This document shows, in pieces, positions 5,257-15,111 of a DNA stretch of 64,000 nt. Position 1 is the stretch's first letter; each line of letters opens with the position of its first letter. The notes below the pieces were generated by a model. It saw only the letters and a program-made list of their open reading frames with translations, was not told the origin of the DNA and did not search any database. Source of the DNA: Thraustochytrium sp. TN22. Taxonomy: Eukaryota > Sar > Bigyra > Thraustochytrida > Thraustochytriidae. The stretch is taken from the NCBI GenBank assembly GCA_013306675.1, contig JABLUY010000055.1, forward strand, positions 96,471-160,470, read 5' to 3'. The position numbers were made by a program, and so were the translations under genes.

Positions 5257-6004
5257 TCACTGGCAGGCCTCAGCCGCCTCACGGATTTTGCGGGAGACGA
5301 TCAGCGTCGGGTCCGAGGGCTCGAGGCGGTGGTAACGTGCCTTGTCCATGGCGGAAGGCGCGCGCAAGAGCACCTCGAGCGCGCGCAGGTACGGGATGGA
5401 CCAAGACTCGCGGCGCAGCACGAAGCGAAACCAGAATTCTTCGGCGAAGCGCAGGTAGCCCAGCAGAAGGAAGACGACGTTGAGAGGAACCAGAAAGAGG
5501 ACGAGCGTCTCGACGGCAAGGATAACGATGACGGTGCGAGTCAGGAGTGGTGTTTCGAAGCTCGCGATGTTGCACGCGCGCTCCAGCAAGGAGGCCACCA
5601 CGCTCAGCAAGTTCTGCACGTGGCGGCCGATGCGGAGCAGGATGCGGATCTGCTGGATGGGAGGCTTCTGCAAAAAAGCGAATTCCTTGTCTGGCAGCGC
5701 GGCGCGCACGTCGCCCGGGACACTGCGGATGCGAGTCCGTAGTGCGTCGGTCCAGGCCGTGATCGACACGAGGTCTCGCACTCGGCCACGCACGCCTCCG
5801 CGTACAAACCCAGCCTCGGCTTCACCCCACACGGCGCCGTCGGTCGGCGCGCCCCCGTCGGTCAGCGCGCCCCCGTCGACATCCAGGGCCAGGGCCTCGT
5901 CCACGGGCCGGACGGCCCCGCGTGCGTCAACGGCGCCGCCGACCAGCAGGCACTTGTTGTTGCCGTCGTCGTCGACGATTTCGTCGATGTCCTCCTCCTC
6001 CTCG

Positions 6005-6036
<32 letters not shown>

Positions 6037-8109
6037 TTTCTCACCATCCTCGTCGTTGCTTTCGTCCTCACCATCGTCCGCGCTGCTGCCCGTGCTGCGG
6101 CGGCGCGCCAAATGGTCCATGACGCTGTCCAGGGGGTCGTCCGCGCCCTCCGTGTAGCTCGAGGACACGTTGCCCTCCTCGTCGACCCGCGTCGTGGCCT
6201 CACTCTTGCCCAGATCAAGCCCATTGTAGACGCCGATCAAGATCAGTGCAGCCAACGGCACCATCCAGGCGCGAAAGAAGAGGCACACCAGGGTCCAGAT
6301 GCAAATGGCCAGCAACGTGTGTCGTGGCTCGTAGCGCCAGCTGATGATGCGCTGAAGGACCACAAGCGCCTCGAGGGTGAAGATAATGTACGGTAGCACG
6401 CGCGTGGCAGCGTTGAGCAGCTGCGACACCGAGAAGGGCTCCGACTTGAACGTGTGGTGGCCCGGCCCGCGCGCCGCGAGTACGCCGGCGCATGCCGGGA
6501 GCAGCTTGTACGTCAGGACTCCGGCCACCTGAATCTCACCCTTGGCCGGCTTGAGCAGGTTGCGCTGCTTGAGCGGGTACCACTGCGCCTCGTCAGATTG
6601 CAGCGAGAGCAACGGGATTCGAACGGCGCCCAGAAAGTCCGCCGCCGTCACGTCATCATGGTCAAATACGAAGAGGTCCACGTGCGTGAAGATGTCCCAC
6701 ACCGGCAGCTCCACGAGCCGGTCCCACTCCGGGTGCAGCGTGCGCCGCTCCGTGTGCGTGCGCACGCGGGTGACGCCGAGTCGGATTTCCACGAACGGGT
6801 CCGAAGTCCCGGTCCAGTCCGCTGCGCGAAGGTCCTTGGCCTGGAGGAGGTGCAGCTTGAGCGTCGCCACCGTCTCGGCGCGCTGCTCCGGCGTCAGCAC
6901 CAGGTCGCCGTTCGTCATAAATACGGTCGCCTCCACATTGAGCATCCCGGCGCTCGCCCCGTCCAGCTGCACCGGCGCCCATAAGCTGTGGACGGTATTG
7001 GGCATCAGGTTCGTCAGGTCCAGCTCCGCGTGGCCCATCAGGTCATCCTTCGACAGAAGGTCGCGGTCCATCACGCACAGCTTGAGCCGAAGCGCCAAGT
7101 TCTCTGGCACGAGGAACTCAAAGTGCTGCTTCCGCCACTTGGGTTTGAGCGTCTGCACCACCGTGCGGCTGCGGTACTGCTTCTTGCCTATGGTGAGCAG
7201 CACATACGGGTCGCTCAGCCCATTTGAGTCTCGCGCCTTGAGCCCGCGTCCGCGTACAAGCTTCACCCTCACCGTGCGCATCGGCGCCTCCGGCGCGGGC
7301 CCCGAGGCCGTCGCCGCGCAGGTCTCCGTCGCCCATCGCACCTGCAGCGTCAGCGTTCCAGTCGCCTCCCCGTTTCGCTGCAGCTGCACGACCAAGTTAC
7401 GGAATTCGTCGCGGGGCACATCGCCTGGATGGATCTCCGCGCTCCCCAAAAGGTCGTCCGAAAACCAAAAGTCCTTGTCCATCACCTGCACTTGCAGCGC
7501 GAAAGAGGTCTGTGCCGGCGCCGGAATGAAGATGTGCTCACCGTTCCAGCGCGGCTCCAGCGTGCGCTTGCGCACCGTCGACTTGCGCTTGATGCGCTTG
7601 CCCACGCGGAACACCACGTACGGGTCCGCCTTGCCGTTCCTGTCCGCCGGTGGCAGTCCGGAAGCGCGGTCCAGCACCACCAGAAAGCCGCTCACCTCCC
7701 GCGGCCCGCTCACAATTGGCTTAGGCTCCGAGATGCTTCGTCCTGGCGCGGCGGCTCGCAGATCACCGACTTTCGTCTGAGCGTTCCGAGCCTCATTTTC
7801 ATCCTCGTTCTCCGAGTCCTTTTCGTGCTGGCCGAAGATGGGCAAGCACGCCGTCAAACCGTGCTGGTGCTGGTGCTGGTGGTGCTGGCGCTGCTGGCGC
7901 TGGTGCGAGCGCCGCTCCGGCTCGGGCCGGTCCTGCGCTGTCACCGGCTCGGGAACCTGCTTGTTCCAAGCGCCCGGACTCGCCTTGGGCACGTCGTGCT
8001 CCTCGCGCTCGCCGCGGCGCTCCGGCAGTAGCCGGTGGCGCAGTCCACCCAGCGCCTCCCGAACCTGTCGCCGCCGCCGCCCGCTCGCAGACGGCGGCGA
8101 GCTCATCAC
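5257..8109 (-). CDS. MCTP-like protein: three C2 domains plus C-terminal membrane segments
   Basis: 950 aa. A disordered His/Gln-rich N-terminus (1-135) precedes three C2 domains at about 138-260, 277-395 and 413-535. Each keeps the first-loop Asp pattern (DRNGKADPYV, DSNGLSDPYV, DWTGTSDPFV) and a second-loop VMDKD, VMDRD or VFDHD, so Ca2+-dependent phospholipid binding is expected. A hydrophobic hairpin lies at about 598-628 and another long hydrophobic segment near 865-900. Between them is a Ser/Asp/Glu-rich loop with a Gly run coded by GCC repeats (6010-6034). Tandem C2 domains followed by a C-terminal hairpin is the plan of MCTP proteins, which tether ER to other membranes. Extended synaptotagmins are less likely because no SMP domain is seen. 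Family call good; exact role inferred. Confidence 0.82.
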
Positions 8110-8436: not shown

Positions 8437-8451
8437 ATGGACCCTGCGCCG
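8437..8451 (+). repeat. Left terminal inverted repeat of the transposon (with AT)
   Basis: ATGGACCCTGCGCCG. It is a perfect inverted match to 15097-15111. The outer AT may be the target duplication rather than part of the repeat. No longer imperfect extension is visible inward. Confidence 0.75.
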
Positions 8452-8587
8452 GCATCAACCCCCGGGTCGAATCCACCATATAAATGTATTAGGGAATGAA
8501 GGGAAATGGGAGCCTGTTAAGGTTGTCATTTTCGCCTGCTTGGCTCATATTAGACCTTCGACTTGACATGAGTTTGACTTAAGCACG

Positions 8588-8746
8588 ATGTTTGGGCGTC
8601 GAATCCTGGTGGCGCGCCGCCCCGCGTCGAATCCCGGTGTCGCGCCGCCCCGCGCCGCCAGGGAGGTGAAGCGTTTGGACCCAGAGCCGCGCGGCGGCCG
8701 AGCTGTGGTCTTAGAGCGGCGTGGAGGCTGTGCGGAGCCGATCACC
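8588..8746 (+). promoter_or_regulatory. Transposase leader with 28-bp tandem duplication and repeated GTCGAATCC motif
   Basis: A 28-bp unit is present twice in tandem (8597-8624 and 8625-8652), each starting CGTCGAATCC. The same GTCGAATCC word also occurs at 8466-8474, so three copies lie within about 170 bp of the left end. The segment is open in frame with the transposase but precedes the Met that aligns with the FEN1 N-terminus, so it is more likely leader DNA. Repeated subterminal words like this are often binding sites for a transposon-encoded DNA-binding protein; that role is inference. Confidence 0.45.
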
Positions 8747-11700
8747 ATGGGCGTGTTGCGCTTCGGGGAGTACATCGGAAAGTACGCTCCGACTGCGCCA
8801 TTGCCGAAGTTCTGGACAAAGCGGATCGAGAGCGTACGCATCGTCTTCGACTTTGGCGCTGCCTTCGCGGCCTGCAAGAGCACGGAGGCCGTGCGCGAGC
8901 AGTGGCAGAGTCCAGGTAGCTTCTCTCCTGCTGTCGTGAGGCGCCTCATGGACGTGGTGAAGCAGCTGAAGAAGTGCTGCGGTAAGCTGTTCATCGTCAT
9001 GGACGGGGCAAACAGCAAGTGGACACCAAAGTCGAAGGAGGCGACGGACCGCGCACGTATTGCACGGCGTGCTCTCGGACGTTGGGCTGTCGCCACGACC
9101 CTCACGCGGAGCTCTGGGTTGAGACTTCTCCGCCTGGCTGTCAACAAGATTTGCGCGATGGTCAGGACGGCTCGTGCCAGCTCTACGGGCGTGAAAGGCC
9201 TGGAGAGCTCTTTGGAGGCTTGCCTCGCCGAGGCCGGTGGCGTGGAAGTCCTGGATGCGTGGCTCGTGGCAGCAGGAGGTCGTGTCGAGGGGCAGCGCCA
9301 GGCCGGACCAACCTGGTTCGACGATCAGTGGAAGTGGCCAGCCGACCTGTCCAGAGGTGGTGGCGAGACGCTAAGCGACCAGGCCTGGGTCGCCCTAGTG
9401 CTTCGTGCAATGGAGCTTCGGCCGTCCACGTGGGCGCGCGTGGTCTGGAATTGCCTGGAGAACAATATGTGGGCTGCACTAGAGGAGACTTCGGCCGGCC
9501 AGGCTGCAGCCATCGAGCTCGTGCGAGGCCTTCTGACGGGCATCTTGGAAACGCAGAAGGCTCAAGCGGTGCGCTGGAACACGCACACTCTCCGCGAGTT
9601 CTACAGACGGGCCACGCAAGAATGGAGCACCGATAAAGTCGTTTTCGTCGGCTCGCTCTACGAAGCAGATGCCCAGGTCGTGGCCACTCGCGACCTTCTG
9701 GCGGTAGCCGAGCCCGATAGCGAGGTTTTTGTCGTCGGCCTCGACTCTGACCTTTACATTCTCGCGAAGGACAAAGAGCATGTCTTGCTCGGCTTCAAGT
9801 ACCGTGGGAACTCGCACCTGCCTGAAGCGTACAAGATCACAGACGCCGTCCTGGAGCATGTCGGCATGAGCAACTTTTCTGATGAGGACTTCCGCCTTCT
9901 TGCCGCCTTCTTAGGGAACGACGTGAGCCCCGGCGTGAAAATGGGTAAGGGAGGCCCAGAAGGGGGAACGGCGCAGCAAGCCGTGACGGAGTGCGTGCGA
10001 GTATACTCGGAAGTTGTCTCCAACACAATCGGGGAGATCGATGGTGACAGTCTCGACTTTTACGATTGCCGCGACAACCTGCTCTCCCAATGCGTCGACC
10101 AGTGGCGCGAGATTATCGGTCAACGTTCACATCCGGACACGCTCTGGAGCGACGAGTCACTCCTGGTCGAACAGCTCGCCCACTCCATGGTCGTCTTCGA
10201 GTCCTACCCTGTGATTGTCTGCGTGTCCCAGGACGAACCCCAGCGGCCGCAGCTGCTCCCGCCGTCCTCGGTGCTGGGCCCTCTTCCACCACTCAGCTGG
10301 CGCCTGGTCTGCTTGAGCGATGTGAGCCGCGTTATACCCATGACGGCGGCCTCGCGCACTGTGCAAGTCCTAACCTACTTGAAGGTCGACACCGTGCACG
10401 CGTTCAACTGCTGTACCGAGGGAGTGTACTCATACTCGCACAAGGCCACGAATGCTGAACGCTTCGATCCTCCGAGGGCTCCGGATATCGCCCTGCTCGC
10501 AAATCGGGGAGCGGATAAGCCCCTGGACATCTGGACGAAGAGCGAGATTGCAAACTTCTTGTCATGGCGCGGATTCTCGCTCGAGTCGTCGTGCTCTGTG
10601 TCGACGGCGCGAGACACATTGAAGAAGTTCTTCGAGATCCACGGCCGGGGGGCCAGGCACCTTTGCATCAGCATGCCGTCCCTGCTGGCCTTCGACTCAT
10701 ATACTCCCGTCGCTCTCCAATACGTGTTGCAGAAGAACGCTCTTCCGGTTGGACTCGCAGGGCTGCTTGAGCTCGCGGAGAATCGAGTTGCCAGGATCGA
10801 CGCTCAGGCTCTCGATGACTTCGCGCCCCGTTTCCCGACAACGAAGGATCGTGGGATGCGTCTCATCAACGGTGGCCACCTCGTGCTCGGCACGGTCAAG
10901 GTCTTTACACAAGGCGCGGCAGCCTGGTTCACGGAGGCGCCGCCGGGCTTTCGTGACAACGTACCACCCATGGTGGTGCACATTCGTTGCCACTCAAGCA
11001 TGAAGAGCACGCAGCAAGCGGCGGTCGTCTTATTCGCTGTGCGCGAGAACTCGGACGCGCTGGTACCGCTACCCTATCCATACTCACGGTGTACATGTTG
11101 GCAGCAGACCTCGCTCTGCAGCCATCAATTTGCGGTTGTGCTCCTCGTTGCGATTCTACAGCGCTGCCGAGCAGCGTGGAACCTGCCTCCCGAAGACTTC
11201 GCCAAGGCAATCCAGGATCGCTTCCCGCCTGACGTGAGACGCTTGATTGACACAATCCAGACCACTGACTCGTACAGCCGAAAGACCGAGAGCGCAAGGC
11301 GGGCCTGGCAGGCCTCGGCTGACGCGCTCACCGAGTCGGAGCGGAGTGGGTCGTTGGAAGTGGACTCGGACGACGAGGATGCCCTCATCATACCAACACT
11401 CGGGGAGCAACATGGACGGCAAAGCCATCAGAAGGAGAGGCCGCGCAAAAGAGCGCGCCCAGCACGGCAGACGCAAGATGCAGCCGCGGCCCAGATGAGA
11501 CTCGATGGCACCGTCAGCGATGGTTCCAAGCTGATAAGACAGGTGGATGTTTTCCTTCATCGGCAAAGGCAACCTGAGCTCACCAGTGCCGGTGCTGCAG
11601 CCGAAGCCGGCTTTGCCCAGCGCCAACTCGATGGCCCATTTGCGTGGTCGAAGGCCATGTTCAAATTGCAGGTGCATGTTTTGCGTCAGCTCCAGCGCAA

Positions 11701-12895
11701 CTACATTGCCTGGCTTGCCAGGAAGCCTGAGATTAAGCGCGAGCAGCGCTGCAACTCTCTCCTCGGCTTTCCCTCGAGCGAGCACTTCGTGCGCTTCTTC
11801 CAATCGGTCTTTCATCCAACCTCGGAGGAGCTCTGGCGGCGCGTTCTCGAAGATGGAATCGATGTAAAGGGTGAGATGCCCGTGCTCGAGTCTCCCAACG
11901 ACGTACGCGCAGTCATGAAGGAGCTATTTCCCGACTTTCTGGCCAACCCGCGGTCGATGATCTACTGCATGATGGTCCTGCGCCTTGGCTTGACCAATGG
12001 GGCGCTTGCTGCCCTGGAAGGATTTACTTCGCCCAAGCCGGTGCAAACTCGCATCAAGCGCTTCTTCCCTGTTCTAGGGGTCGTGGGACAGCTACTTACC
12101 AGCTTCGACTATCTCCCAGAGTGCCTCTTAGAAGTGAATCCGGACTCATTCAAGGAGGGCGACCTCACCGACATCCTTTGTGTGGGCGACTGCAGTGACT
12201 TCCCTTGCGCCAGCATCAACGGCAACTTTGACATTGAGGTCTACTCGGACAAGGTCGGAGGCCCGGCGTTGCGCGGTCTCATCCTTGCGCTCCCCAACGG
12301 CATGGTTCACACCGCAAGCCCACTCGTCCTGGCTCGAGCAAGCGAGGCGAGCCTCATCGAGGCTGTCGCATCCAAGCGCCTCAGCAAGCTCAAACCGCAC
12401 CTTCGCCTGCTGTACGACAAGGGCGCGTCGAACGTTGGCCTCCGGCTTCCAAACATGAACAACGTCGCATCACCAGCACATAAGATCACGTTCGGCAAGA
12501 AGAAGGATCATTTTCTGCCGGAGGAGGTGAACCAGAACCGGGAGAACTCGGCCAAGCGTGCTTTCGTGGAACACAGGTTTGGGGATATCAAAGCTTTCCA
12601 TTTCCTCTCTCACTGTGTGAACAAGCAGAACATGCAGCGCGCCAACCATGCATGGTATTTCCTTCTCGGGCTCACTAACTTTGTGGGCGCCCCCAGCTGC
12701 AAACGTCGCGATCGTCCGGGCCAGATCACAACCACCGATAAGTACGACCGATTCGACGTCTGTCATGCGAGTCTGTACCTCTTGCGCTCAGCCTATACCG
12801 CGAGGATGAAGCGGTGGCTCGCGCTCTTAGACACCAGCGATGCAGCTCCTGAGAAGCGCGCCAAGCTACCAGCCTTCTTGCACCACCTCATCTGA
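8747..12895 (+). CDS. Transposase fusing FEN1/XPG-type nuclease, SWIM zinc finger and DDE core
   Basis: 1382 aa from ATG 8747 (context CACCATGG). This start gives MGVLRFGEYI, matching the MGIxGLxxxI N-terminus of FEN1/XPG; an in-frame ATG at 8588 would add 53 unconserved residues. The nuclease residues are all present: D35 (VFDFGAAF), D86 (MDGAN), E306 and D308 (YEADAQ, as in EXO1), D333 and D335 (GLDSDL), and D392 in the LGNDVSPG turn. The N and I halves are separated by an insert longer than in FEN1. A SWIM finger CxCx6CxH spans 782-793. A basic KRARPARQ stretch follows near 950. The DDE core has D1148 or D1151 (GDCSDF), D1224 (LLYDKGAS) and E1275 (FVEHRFGDIKAF), the last two in DDE_Tnp_4-like context. 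No internal stop or frameshift. It should cut and join its own ends; the nuclease may trim flaps or nick ends. Domain calls are by eye. Confidence 0.82.
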   Translation: MGVLRFGEYIGKYAPTAPLPKFWTKRIESVRIVFDFGAAFAACKSTEAVREQWQSPGSFSPAVVRRLMDVVKQLKKCCGKLFIVMDGANSKWTPKSKEATDRARIARRALGRWAVATTLTRSSGLRLLRLAVNKICAMVRTARASSTGVKGLESSLEACLAEAGGVEVLDAWLVAAGGRVEGQRQAGPTWFDDQWKWPADLSRGGGETLSDQAWVALVLRAMELRPSTWARVVWNCLENNMWAALEETSAGQAAAIELVRGLLTGILETQKAQAVRWNTHTLREFYRRATQEWSTDKVVFVGSLYEADAQVVATRDLLAVAEPDSEVFVVGLDSDLYILAKDKEHVLLGFKYRGNSHLPEAYKITDAVLEHVGMSNFSDEDFRLLAAFLGNDVSPGVKMGKGGPEGGTAQQAVTECVRVYSEVVSNTIGEIDGDSLDFYDCRDNLLSQCVDQWREIIGQRSHPDTLWSDESLLVEQLAHSMVVFESYPVIVCVSQDEPQRPQLLPPSSVLGPLPPLSWRLVCLSDVSRVIPMTAASRTVQVLTYLKVDTVHAFNCCTEGVYSYSHKATNAERFDPPRAPDIALLANRGADKPLDIWTKSEIANFLSWRGFSLESSCSVSTARDTLKKFFEIHGRGARHLCISMPSLLAFDSYTPVALQYVLQKNALPVGLAGLLELAENRVARIDAQALDDFAPRFPTTKDRGMRLINGGHLVLGTVKVFTQGAAAWFTEAPPGFRDNVPPMVVHIRCHSSMKSTQQAAVVLFAVRENSDALVPLPYPYSRCTCWQQTSLCSHQFAVVLLVAILQRCRAAWNLPPEDFAKAIQDRFPPDVRRLIDTIQTTDSYSRKTESARRAWQASADALTESERSGSLEVDSDDEDALIIPTLGEQHGRQSHQKERPRKRARPARQTQDAAAAQMRLDGTVSDGSKLIRQVDVFLHRQRQPELTSAGAAAEAGFAQRQLDGPFAWSKAMFKLQVHVLRQLQRNYIAWLARKPEIKREQRCNSLLGFPSSEHFVRFFQSVFHPTSEELWRRVLEDGIDVKGEMPVLESPNDVRAVMKELFPDFLANPRSMIYCMMVLRLGLTNGALAALEGFTSPKPVQTRIKRFFPVLGVVGQLLTSFDYLPECLLEVNPDSFKEGDLTDILCVGDCSDFPCASINGNFDIEVYSDKVGGPALRGLILALPNGMVHTASPLVLARASEASLIEAVASKRLSKLKPHLRLLYDKGASNVGLRLPNMNNVASPAHKITFGKKKDHFLPEEVNQNRENSAKRAFVEHRFGDIKAFHFLSHCVNKQNMQRANHAWYFLLGLTNFVGAPSCKRRDRPGQITTTDKYDRFDVCHASLYLLRSAYTARMKRWLALLDTSDAAPEKRAKLPAFLHHLI

Positions 12896-12914
12896 AACAC
12901 TGGGTACCATGGTA

Positions 12915-14138
12915 CTAATAATTATCGCAACTCTCAATATCCGAGGCGAGCACCGGATCAGCAGCATCACCCGTAGCATCACCCAAACTCGCTTGCCGGT
13001 CGGCGTCGGCCAACATGCGACCCCTCGCTTCGAGGAACCCCTCGTGGAATGGCGTGACCACTCCACACACTCCACGCTGCCCTTTAAATAGGCTGACTTG
13101 GTCCTGCAGGTCTCGACGAGCTTGTCGAGCGCAATCCTCCCGCTCCTCCGCCTCCCTGATCCTTGCCGTGGCGCTGTCCACATCCCTCCGCAACGCCTGG
13201 AGCTCCTCTTCATCCGTGGACCTGGACGCCTCGAAGAGGGCGCTCGCCGCGTCGTGGAGACGTTTTGTTTCGCGGGCTGAGGCTTCGGTTGCTTTCAGGT
13301 CAGATTGCGCCTTGGCAAGCTGTGCAGACGCAATTGCAAACTGCACCTCCATAGCGTGCTCGGCGTCGTACTTCTCAGCTTCGACCTCCTCATTCAGGGC
13401 AAGCACTTCCGTAATATCTACAAGCGCATTTGCGAGGGCTTTCTCCGCGTCATCGCGCCGCGTCCGTTCCTCGTCGGCACGTTCACCTTCTACCATGACG
13501 AGCCCCGCTAGGACGCCAAGAGCCGAGGCGACATGCCTCGGGCTTTCCAGCCCGTGCGACTTCAGTGCAGCTGTGCTGGCCCGATCCAGGCGAGAGGAAG
13601 TGAGAGCAGTGCCCGTGCGCGGCGACACACAAGCAGAAAACTTAACGTCCGGGACGACAATCGCAGCTGGTCTTGGACGCGATATATTTCTCGAATGGGT
13701 CGTGAGGGTGAATTTGTCGGCCGGGTCCGTCCGGGCTGAAACATCCACGTAGAAGAGCAGTCTGCGAGCGCAATTGGAGTAGTCTGTGGAGTCTGGCCCA
13801 ACTGGAGGAACGCTGTCATCTAAGCGCACGAAGCATTCAGGCCGGAAATGCCGATATCCAACATACTGACTGGTTGGCGCCACCTCCCTCAACTGGGACT
13901 CTTGGATGCCGAGGTGCTTTAGCCAGCGAGCACGCACGTTGATCCCATTATGCGCACGCTTTGCTCCAGGAAGCTTGACTAAGTACCCCGACACCGTAAG
14001 CTCGCCACCGTCACGATCGGCCTCTTGGCATGCACCAACTCTGGCACGTGCCACCACCTTGGTGCACAAACAACTGCCCTTCGGCGAGCGACGAGTGCGC
14101 CGCTTCTTCTGAGAAGGCTCCGCGTCGTCTTGATCCAT
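12915..14138 (-). CDS. THAP-like N-terminus plus coiled coil; second transposon protein
   Basis: 407 aa, convergent with the transposase. The basic start (KKRRTRRS at 11-18) looks like a nuclear signal. Residues about 23-103 resemble a THAP DNA-binding domain: early C23 and C25, VKLPG at 54-58, ARWLKHLG at 70-77, and RHFRPECF at 96-103, matching the family's FP, W and C-x2-H-F...CF landmarks. The expected third zinc ligand before H97 is Gly94 instead of Cys, so the domain may be degenerate or fold without standard zinc binding. Residues about 215-355 are Ala/Glu/Arg-rich heptad-like sequence, probably a dimerising coiled coil. A separate DNA-binding partner encoded beside the transposase recalls the Myb-like second protein of Harbinger elements. 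Gene real with good confidence; THAP assignment moderate. Confidence 0.6.
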   Translation of the reverse strand: MDQDDAEPSQKKRRTRRSPKGSCLCTKVVARARVGACQEADRDGGELTVSGYLVKLPGAKRAHNGINVRARWLKHLGIQESQLREVAPTSQYVGYRHFRPECFVRLDDSVPPVGPDSTDYSNCARRLLFYVDVSARTDPADKFTLTTHSRNISRPRPAAIVVPDVKFSACVSPRTGTALTSSRLDRASTAALKSHGLESPRHVASALGVLAGLVMVEGERADEERTRRDDAEKALANALVDITEVLALNEEVEAEKYDAEHAMEVQFAIASAQLAKAQSDLKATEASARETKRLHDAASALFEASRSTDEEELQALRRDVDSATARIREAEEREDCARQARRDLQDQVSLFKGQRGVCGVVTPFHEGFLEARGRMLADADRQASLGDATGDAADPVLASDIESCDNY

Positions 14139-15096
14139 GTCTTGGCCAGTAGCGGCCGCACGCAGATCACCTGCTTGTTGATGGCAGGCACCCAGATGGA
14201 GTTCAGGTGCGCCTCAGACCTCCAAAGCGCCACTTTGGCCCTGGAATCACCTCGTAAGAGTCACGGCAGGCCCTGGTCTACGTCCTAGCTGCTCAATCGC
14301 TCCCAAGGCCACGGCAGAGCTCGACGTGGGGACCTCCTTTTGAGTCCCTCAGGCCAATGACCCGCACAGCGCCTATGTAGGCTTTCAAAAGCCCACAATT
14401 CGCTTTGGAGAACGTTCAGGTATAGGTCCACCTGATGTGAAGGTCTTTGCGACTAATCAAAGCCTGTGGCGAGACTGAGCGGGACACCAAGGAGAGACTT
14501 TTTTTGGACTTCCTTCGAACTCCTCTGCCGAAGCCGTCGAGGCGTCTCAGAAGCTAGCACACGAGTATCAGAGCCTCCAACCACCCTCTCAGCCGTAGCC
14601 AAGACGCGCCGGGGCACCAGGAGAGCGTGCGAGCTCAGGAGAGCACCACCAAAATCGTCAAGATCGACGTCTCGCCACCTCCTAGGGGCAATTCCGACGT
14701 CTCGACCCAGTATGGTGGGCTGACGTAGTGGCGGGATGTCGAGGGTGATGTATAGAAGCCCTAGAGCAGCCCCAACACGAACCCGAAGCCCTCACTCCTG
14801 TGCACCAAGTGCTCGAAGTAGGCGTCCAAACCGTGGATGAGCCCGCCCAATGTCGGTTCGCCGCCGCCTTCAGCGGGACCGCGAAGCCTCGGCACGCGCA
14901 CCAGCGCGGCCTCACACCACCACACGCCGACTAGCCCCGCCCGTCAGCGCGCCCCCTCCCCGCCACGCCCGCACGAGCGCACGAAGCCATCCACGCGCAA
15001 GCAGGCATTTCTGCTGCTTCACTGGGAATAGACGCCGAGCTTCGCTGCCGGCCCCCCGGCGCAGGTGCGCCTTAACACGTATTATACATATTGAGA
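14139..15096. other. Right non-coding arm of the transposon
   Basis: About 960 bp between the THAP-like gene start and the right terminal repeat. It should contain that gene's promoter. No long open frame shows conserved motifs. Base composition is less GC-skewed than the host DNA to the right, except for a C-rich patch at 14920-14975. Confidence 0.5.
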
Positions 15097-15111
15097 CGGC
15101 GCAGGGTCCAT
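15097..15111 (-). repeat. Right terminal inverted repeat of the transposon (with AT)
   Basis: CGGCGCAGGGTCCAT, the exact inverse of 8437-8451. Host sequence resumes with GGGAACC; beyond the AT there is no match to the left flank (GGCGA), so any target duplication is limited to AT. Confidence 0.75.

Follow-up and report, generated by a model that had tools for sequence, protein, structure and literature searches.

The 64,000-nucleotide stretch of Thraustochytrium sp. TN22 DNA analysed here (the window; contig JABLUY010000055.1, positions 96,471 to 160,470) carries a DNA transposon in which one open reading frame (ORF1) encodes a protein of 1382 residues. This element is probably an ISL2EU-like cut-and-paste transposon in which the YqaJ exonuclease has given way to a FEN1/XPG-type nuclease that may act on 5' ends and is fused, together with a SWIM-type finger, ahead of a DDE_Tnp_4 domain. 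Such proteins and elements are called fused below, and those of a family in the same genome in which the modules are separate frames are called split. The genome examined comprises 37.9 Mb in 453 contigs; the window lies on the contig labelled C404, and other contigs are designated in the same way.

The ORF1 frame is genuine and forms part of a DNA transposon. As proposed in the preliminary description of this DNA, it is a single unbroken frame. It is also readable from an upstream ATG at 8588 (1435 residues), and the conserved start is the MGV at 8747. Two 28-bp tandem units (8596-8651) lie just 5' of this conserved start, within the optional N-terminal extension. An identical copy elsewhere and a ratio of non-synonymous to synonymous substitution rates (dN/dS) of 0.31 overall between the window and C136 copies indicate that the frame is more than chance. 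When the genome was searched with the ORF1 protein, 10 matches turned up on 7 contigs. They comprise the window's own frame, an identical protein on C277, proteins of 87% and 39% identity on C136 and C27, and fragments, decayed or short, on C413, C150 and C66. The C277 copy is 100% identical to window 8437-15111 and its flanks are unrelated; thus the element was probably mobile in the recent past. Origin of the frame from a host gene was rejected, given full-length identical copies with terminal inverted repeats (TIRs) and unrelated flanks. The left end of a third copy, starting at the same base, is located at the end of contig C252.

The TIRs are 13 bp long and start with GG. Both the C404 and the C277 copies read AT-GGACCCTGCGCCG on the left and CGGCGCAGGGTCC-AT on the right, and the C27 element, spanning 7,025 bp, has its own AT-flanked TIR, GGAGCTGAGTCC. 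AT was therefore found at both ends of all three fused elements with two ends located (C404, C277 and C27), although it could be part of the TIR, because no empty site was seen. When the TIR was searched as a pattern with one mismatch, it occurred at 16 places versus 14 for a reversed control, and only the five exact places were used. The C136 copy (L020, 2992-7323) keeps the full frame, with the likely first DDE catalytic D changed to G and with 6 stops in its ORF2 match. It is probably immobile for these two reasons, though its nuclease acids remain.

The N-terminal region of the fused protein is very likely a FEN1/XPG-type nuclease, as judged from conserved residues and profile comparison. 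The seven acidic residues listed in the preliminary description (D35, D86, E306, D308, D333, D335 and D392) lie at the sites given there and, with the MGV start, do not vary among the three aligned fused proteins (window, C136 and C27). All seven are also present in the decayed C413 copy, which is alignable from residue 24 on. D35 and D86 are 51 residues apart; the corresponding spacing in human FEN1 is 52. Like cellular FEN1, EXO1 and XPG (Rad2) proteins, the region combines an MG-[VI] start, the seven acids in order and an H3TH-like glycine stretch. It differs from them in its very low identity, in being fused to a finger as well as to a DDE domain, and in the distance from the N-like to the I-like block, which exceeds that of FEN1 by about 150 residues.

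Since direct tests against Pfam and the PDB were negative, a FEN1-family profile was built for profile-profile comparison with hhalign. It contained 16 archaeal FEN1, host FEN1, host EXO1 and three split XPG proteins. The archaeal sequences were those kept from 30 loci, 14 being dropped by a filter (no frame, or none full-length with the usual start); scans of prokaryote contigs for FEN1 sequences yielded none and one. Unguided, hhalign aligned E306/D308, D333/D335 and D392 with their FEN1 counterparts. Once the C413 piece was included, the same comparison scored 35.0, whereas the best of 150 column shuffles scored 26.2 (0/150 as high). The N-terminal block alone scored 20.7 against the FEN1 N region, with D86 in register, a score reached by 4 of 200 shuffles. 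In favour of the assignment, a loose FEN1-type pattern also hit 9 of 242 frames, namely six of the fused family at overlapping loci, host FEN1, host EXO1 and a single archaeal FEN1, and 1 of 20,000 shuffles. A global hhalign alignment gave a meaningless register and was discarded. XPG models fail on the fused protein; the nuclease assignment thus rests on residues in register, the profile-profile score and the context of the split family, not on a Pfam or PDB search. What stands of the "complete FEN1/XPG-type nuclease" first described is the ordered set of seven acids and the profile-profile score, and not a Pfam XPG match.

A genome-wide XPG_I profile search yielded 10 matches at E≤10. Three are host genes, namely FEN1, plus XPG and EXO1 as judged from their sequences, and six belong to the repeated split family, the one on C425 being below the cut-off. 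Another below-cut-off match (G000:C123:38927-39163) lies in a 503-residue frame distinct from those of host FEN1, EXO1 and XPG. Five of the six split XPG loci (C88, C177, C398, C425 and C267) adjoin a DDE_Tnp_4 match, and the sixth is on a contig, C73, without one. The family encodes a transposase of 678 residues with DDE and helix-turn-helix (HTH) domains and, convergently, an XPG protein of 433 residues and a SWIM-motif protein of 371 residues (the 678 and 371 residues are counted from GTG). For the XPG protein and the SWIM-motif protein, six full-length copies each were counted. In Pfam these proteins matched XPG_N (2.8e-15), XPG_I (3.6e-7), DDE_Tnp_4 (1.1e-33) and HTH_Tnp_4 (3.1e-12). Against the PDB, phmmer retrieved 28 sequences with the 433-residue protein, all of them Rad2, EXO1, XPG or FEN1 (best 1.1e-11), and by sequence this protein is unmistakably an XPG nuclease. 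The 371-residue protein matches no Pfam family; its C88 copy carries a CxCx8CxH motif. The three modules of the window frame therefore exist as three frames in a relative from the same genome, with the order of nuclease and finger kept. Among the split elements, AT stands after the right end on C88, C177, C398 and C425, and before the left end on C88 and C398, the left flank being masked on C177 and that of C425 left out of this check.

Further observations concern the split family and its surroundings. The XPG copy on C73 (L031, 1060-2364) is open and has lost active-site acids (FAGAP, YEANH). At C88:23560-23900, an ATG overlapping the stop of the XPG frame (ATGGCTGA) might serve as start of the SWIM-type protein, provided that a short GT-AG intron of some 54 nt, seen by eye, is spliced out. 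A third DDE_Tnp_4 and HTH_Tnp_4 family, with an HHFxPxxF motif, is found on C216 (L007), at a contig end that precedes any point where a nuclease gene could show. In a tree of XPG proteins the split nuclease stood beside host EXO1 (87% SH-aLRT) on very long branches, and this placement was not used to assign an origin. Viral contigs were scanned with three queries (window protein, split XPG protein, protein alignment), and no relative was confirmed.

Downstream of the nuclease, the finger C782-x-C784-x6-C791-x-H793 is invariant in all three fused proteins. CxCxnCxH is the SWIM motif. The SWIM finger of the preliminary description is thus found as a motif, at its place and invariant, and not as a match to a SWIM model. 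Pfam recognised a single domain in ORF1 at E≤1, DDE_Tnp_4, above the cut-off (5.3e-9). The first catalytic D is most likely D1148, where this match starts. The D-D-E triad in a DDE_Tnp_4-like context, as originally proposed, agrees with the Pfam match, with the reservation that its first D is G in C136. The HTH_Tnp_4-like stretch of the fused protein has no Pfam match and was seen by hhalign to the split transposase. Comparing fused with split DDE regions, hhalign gave E 1e-4 over 217 columns (without shuffles; split side represented by C88 and the third family of C216), and it gave E 0.14 between the fused DDE region and two Harbinger-like DDE proteins of the same genome.

Selection was estimated between the window and C136 copies, with small counts per block and a partly decayed C136. 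dN/dS was 0.24 in the XPG N-like block, 0.47 in the insert, 0.21 in the XPG I-like block, 0.22 in the finger region and 0.36 in the DDE domain. dN was the same in the XPG I-like block and the DDE domain (0.058 each) and 0.071 in the XPG N-like block. The nuclease blocks are thus constrained, and no stronger constraint than on the DDE domain is claimed.

Features of the transposon, in window coordinates.
Feature	Positions	Strand	Description or basis
Whole transposon	8437..15111	.	6,675 bp including flanking AT on both sides; 100% identity with C277 across the exact span
Left TIR, GGACCCTGCGCCG	8439..8451	+	AT directly before
ORF1, nuclease-finger-DDE fusion	8747..12895	+	1382 aa, unbroken
XPG N-like block, residues 1-130 (MGV, D35, D86)	8747..9136	+	Residues; hhalign against FEN1 N region
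Insert separating the N-like from the I-like block, residues 131-255	9137..9511	+	dN/dS
XPG I-like block and H3TH-like stretch, residues 256-420 (E306, D308, D333, D335, D392)	9512..10006	+	hhalign against FEN1/EXO1/split XPG profile
SWIM-type finger CxCx6CxH, residues 782-793	11090..11125	+	Motif
HTH_Tnp_4-like stretch before DDE domain	11954..12097	+	hhalign to HTH_Tnp_4 region of split transposase
DDE_Tnp_4 catalytic domain, likely triad D1148, D1224, E1275	12188..12679	+	Pfam match, alignment
ORF2, 407 aa	12915..14138	-	Convergent with ORF1; CLC...C...HFxPxxF motif, then coiled-coil-like tail (by eye)
Right TIR	15097..15109	-	AT directly after

Action on 5' ends is common to YqaJ/lambda-type exonucleases and FEN1/EXO1 nucleases, so that one type could replace the other. 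Pfam detected no YqaJ domain in ORF1 or ORF2, and the only YqaJ match in the genome at E≤1 is on C78, a contig without a DDE_Tnp_4 match. In passages of PMC4482050, ISL2EU elements are described with an AT duplication and TIRs usually starting with GG, and most autonomous candidates with one ORF for a DDE, HTH and THAP protein and another for a YqaJ exonuclease; the function of additional ORFs of the PHIS groups is stated there as unknown. According to such passages (PMC4482050, PMC9179366), the fused element resembles the ISL2EU group of PHIS in its AT flanks, its GG TIRs (found in two fused families, with GGACCCTGCGCCG and GGAGCTGAGTCC), its DDE_Tnp_4-type transposase, its two genes and its accessory DNA nuclease. 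It departs from the ISL2EU elements described there in that this nuclease is FEN1/XPG-like rather than YqaJ and is joined, with the finger, to the transposase, and in that a finger-like domain is found in ORF2, whereas in ISL2EU it is on the transposase. The flanking A and T that part of PMC4482050 describes for ISL2EU are inconsistently present at fused elements. Because end features and DDE domain are shared and YqaJ is absent, the element may be called ISL2EU-like, not ISL2EU, a classification set against published ISL2EU descriptions only. The idea that a flap endonuclease takes the place of YqaJ, already put forward in the preliminary description, gains from the AT/GG ends and from a split family with XPG, SWIM motif and DDE, and suffers from the failure of XPG models on the fused protein.

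Variation of accessory nucleases within one transposon superfamily has a parallel in KolobokE, KolobokD and KolobokP, since passages of PMC9587614 describe lambda-exonuclease-like, DEDDh and His-Me finger nucleases among Kolobok lineages. Kolobok has a transposase of another superfamily, and those passages name no XPG nuclease for it. In the open literature (Repbase reports outside scope), no paper with both "Harbinger" and "XPG" was found, and "Harbinger" and "flap endonuclease" were mentioned together only in papers on other topics, as judged by listings. Among the matches listed, none combined "Academ" with "XPG" or "ISL2EU" with "XPG", and further listings showed no Harbinger or ISL2EU element that bears XPG.

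Several results weigh against an ISL2EU-like element with an XPG-type nuclease. No XPG model of Pfam matched ORF1 at E≤1 or the fused proteins of C136 and C27 at E≤5; a profile of the three fused N-terminal regions found no PDB chain at E≤10, and BLASTP between fused and split nucleases returned nothing significant. The preliminary description had named beforehand a failure to match XPG models as speaking against its proposal, and for the fused protein this failure occurred. The hhalign probabilities were low (1.3-21%, with a query of 3-4 sequences), and the fused region aligned with the three split XPG proteins alone at E 0.039 over 39 columns. The loose FEN1-type pattern had been composed with the fused proteins in view, and neither the split XPG proteins nor most of the archaeal FEN1 were caught by it. 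The SWIM models of Pfam match neither the fused proteins nor the split SWIM-type protein. The split DDE region aligned with the Harbinger-like DDE proteins at E 0.001, and a DDE tree of 7 rows with long branches resolved three groups and left the sisterhood of fused and split forms undecided. The split TIR, AGATGAGATGCGC, starts with AG, not GG; the C267 split copy has AT at neither end; and a search for end repeats at C136 found none. As for the proposed role, the KolobokD DEDDh enzyme, which degrades from 3' ends according to part of PMC9587614, does not fit the 5'-end rule.

The silence of Pfam and PDB profile searches fits the possibility that the N-terminal region is a non-XPG domain carrying FEN1-like acidic motifs by chance or convergence, which would leave only the finger-DDE part understood. 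So does the fact that fused and split nucleases are unalignable by BLASTP and barely alignable by hhalign. We consider this improbable in view of the order, spacing and identity of the seven acids with MGV and the H3TH-like glycine stretch, block scores reached by only 0/150 and 4/200 shuffles, and a dN/dS that is lower in either nuclease block than in the intervening insert. The XPG-like part might instead be a captured passenger or a degenerating domain, dispensable for transposition by the DDE domain alone. Indeed, where ISL2EU has an accessory nuclease, other PHIS groups are described in passages of PMC4482050 with a Myb/SANT protein or, in Spy, with the transposase only, and the split copy of C73 has lost its active-site acids. 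We doubt this strongly, because the nuclease acids are invariant in 3/3 fused proteins, dN/dS is 0.24 and 0.21 in the two blocks, and nuclease, finger and DDE recur in two very distant families.

Academ transposons carry an XPG-like nuclease with a DDE transposase, and a divergent Academ member would thus account for the same nuclease type. Against this, the catalytic domain of the fused element matches DDE_Tnp_4 (5.3e-9), the split relative has HTH_Tnp_4 and the ends are AT-GG; DDE_Tnp_4 and HTH_Tnp_4 are domains of the Harbinger/ISL2EU side. Judged by these domain matches and end sequences, an Academ affiliation is quite improbable. Also unlikely is a separate lineage, in which the flap endonuclease would be a covalent part of the transposase and itself catalyse a step, on the non-transferred strand or a branched intermediate, with the DDE domain cutting one strand only.

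If the element is ISL2EU-like with an exchanged nuclease, its transposase would cut at the GG ends and insert at AT, the DDE domain cutting and joining the transposon ends. The nuclease, tethered by fusion to the same DNA ends, would act on 5' ends. It may trim short 5' flaps and gaps at new junctions and/or resect the 5' strands of the donor break, a role in 5' flap trimming or strand resection that we propose tentatively. The SWIM-type finger and the finger of ORF2 may aid DNA binding.

ORF2 matches no Pfam family above the cut-off. Searching the genome with it gave 18 matches at E≤0.1 (itself and C277 included), among them one in the C27 element at 28%. C-x2-H is part of the THAP motif; membership of ORF2 in THAP was not accepted, as Pfam gave no THAP match and the C of C-x2-H is absent before HFxPxxF. 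One open frame of 1676 residues (G000:C22:48557-50893) matches the N-terminal ORF2 finger four times in tandem and is perhaps a multi-finger protein built from a transposon domain. Next to the insertion in the window, a frame of 950 residues on the minus strand (5257-8109), with several C2-like repeats and membrane stretches seen by eye, is apparently a host gene. Elsewhere in the genome, a polyunsaturated-fatty-acid synthase frame of 3044 residues scored over the cut-off (PfaA, 2,540 bits with in-frame neighbours), and 0/14 control genomes passed. A synthase of this type points to a labyrinthulid protist.

Altogether, the fused and split forms suggest that transposons of this kind carry along a tool of their own for processing DNA. 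A FEN1/XPG-type nuclease in the place of YqaJ, as a stand-alone protein in one family and as a fusion in the other, would amount to a natural swap experiment. This swap suggests that what these transposons require at their ends is a 5'-end or flap nuclease as such, which could be tested with one protein.

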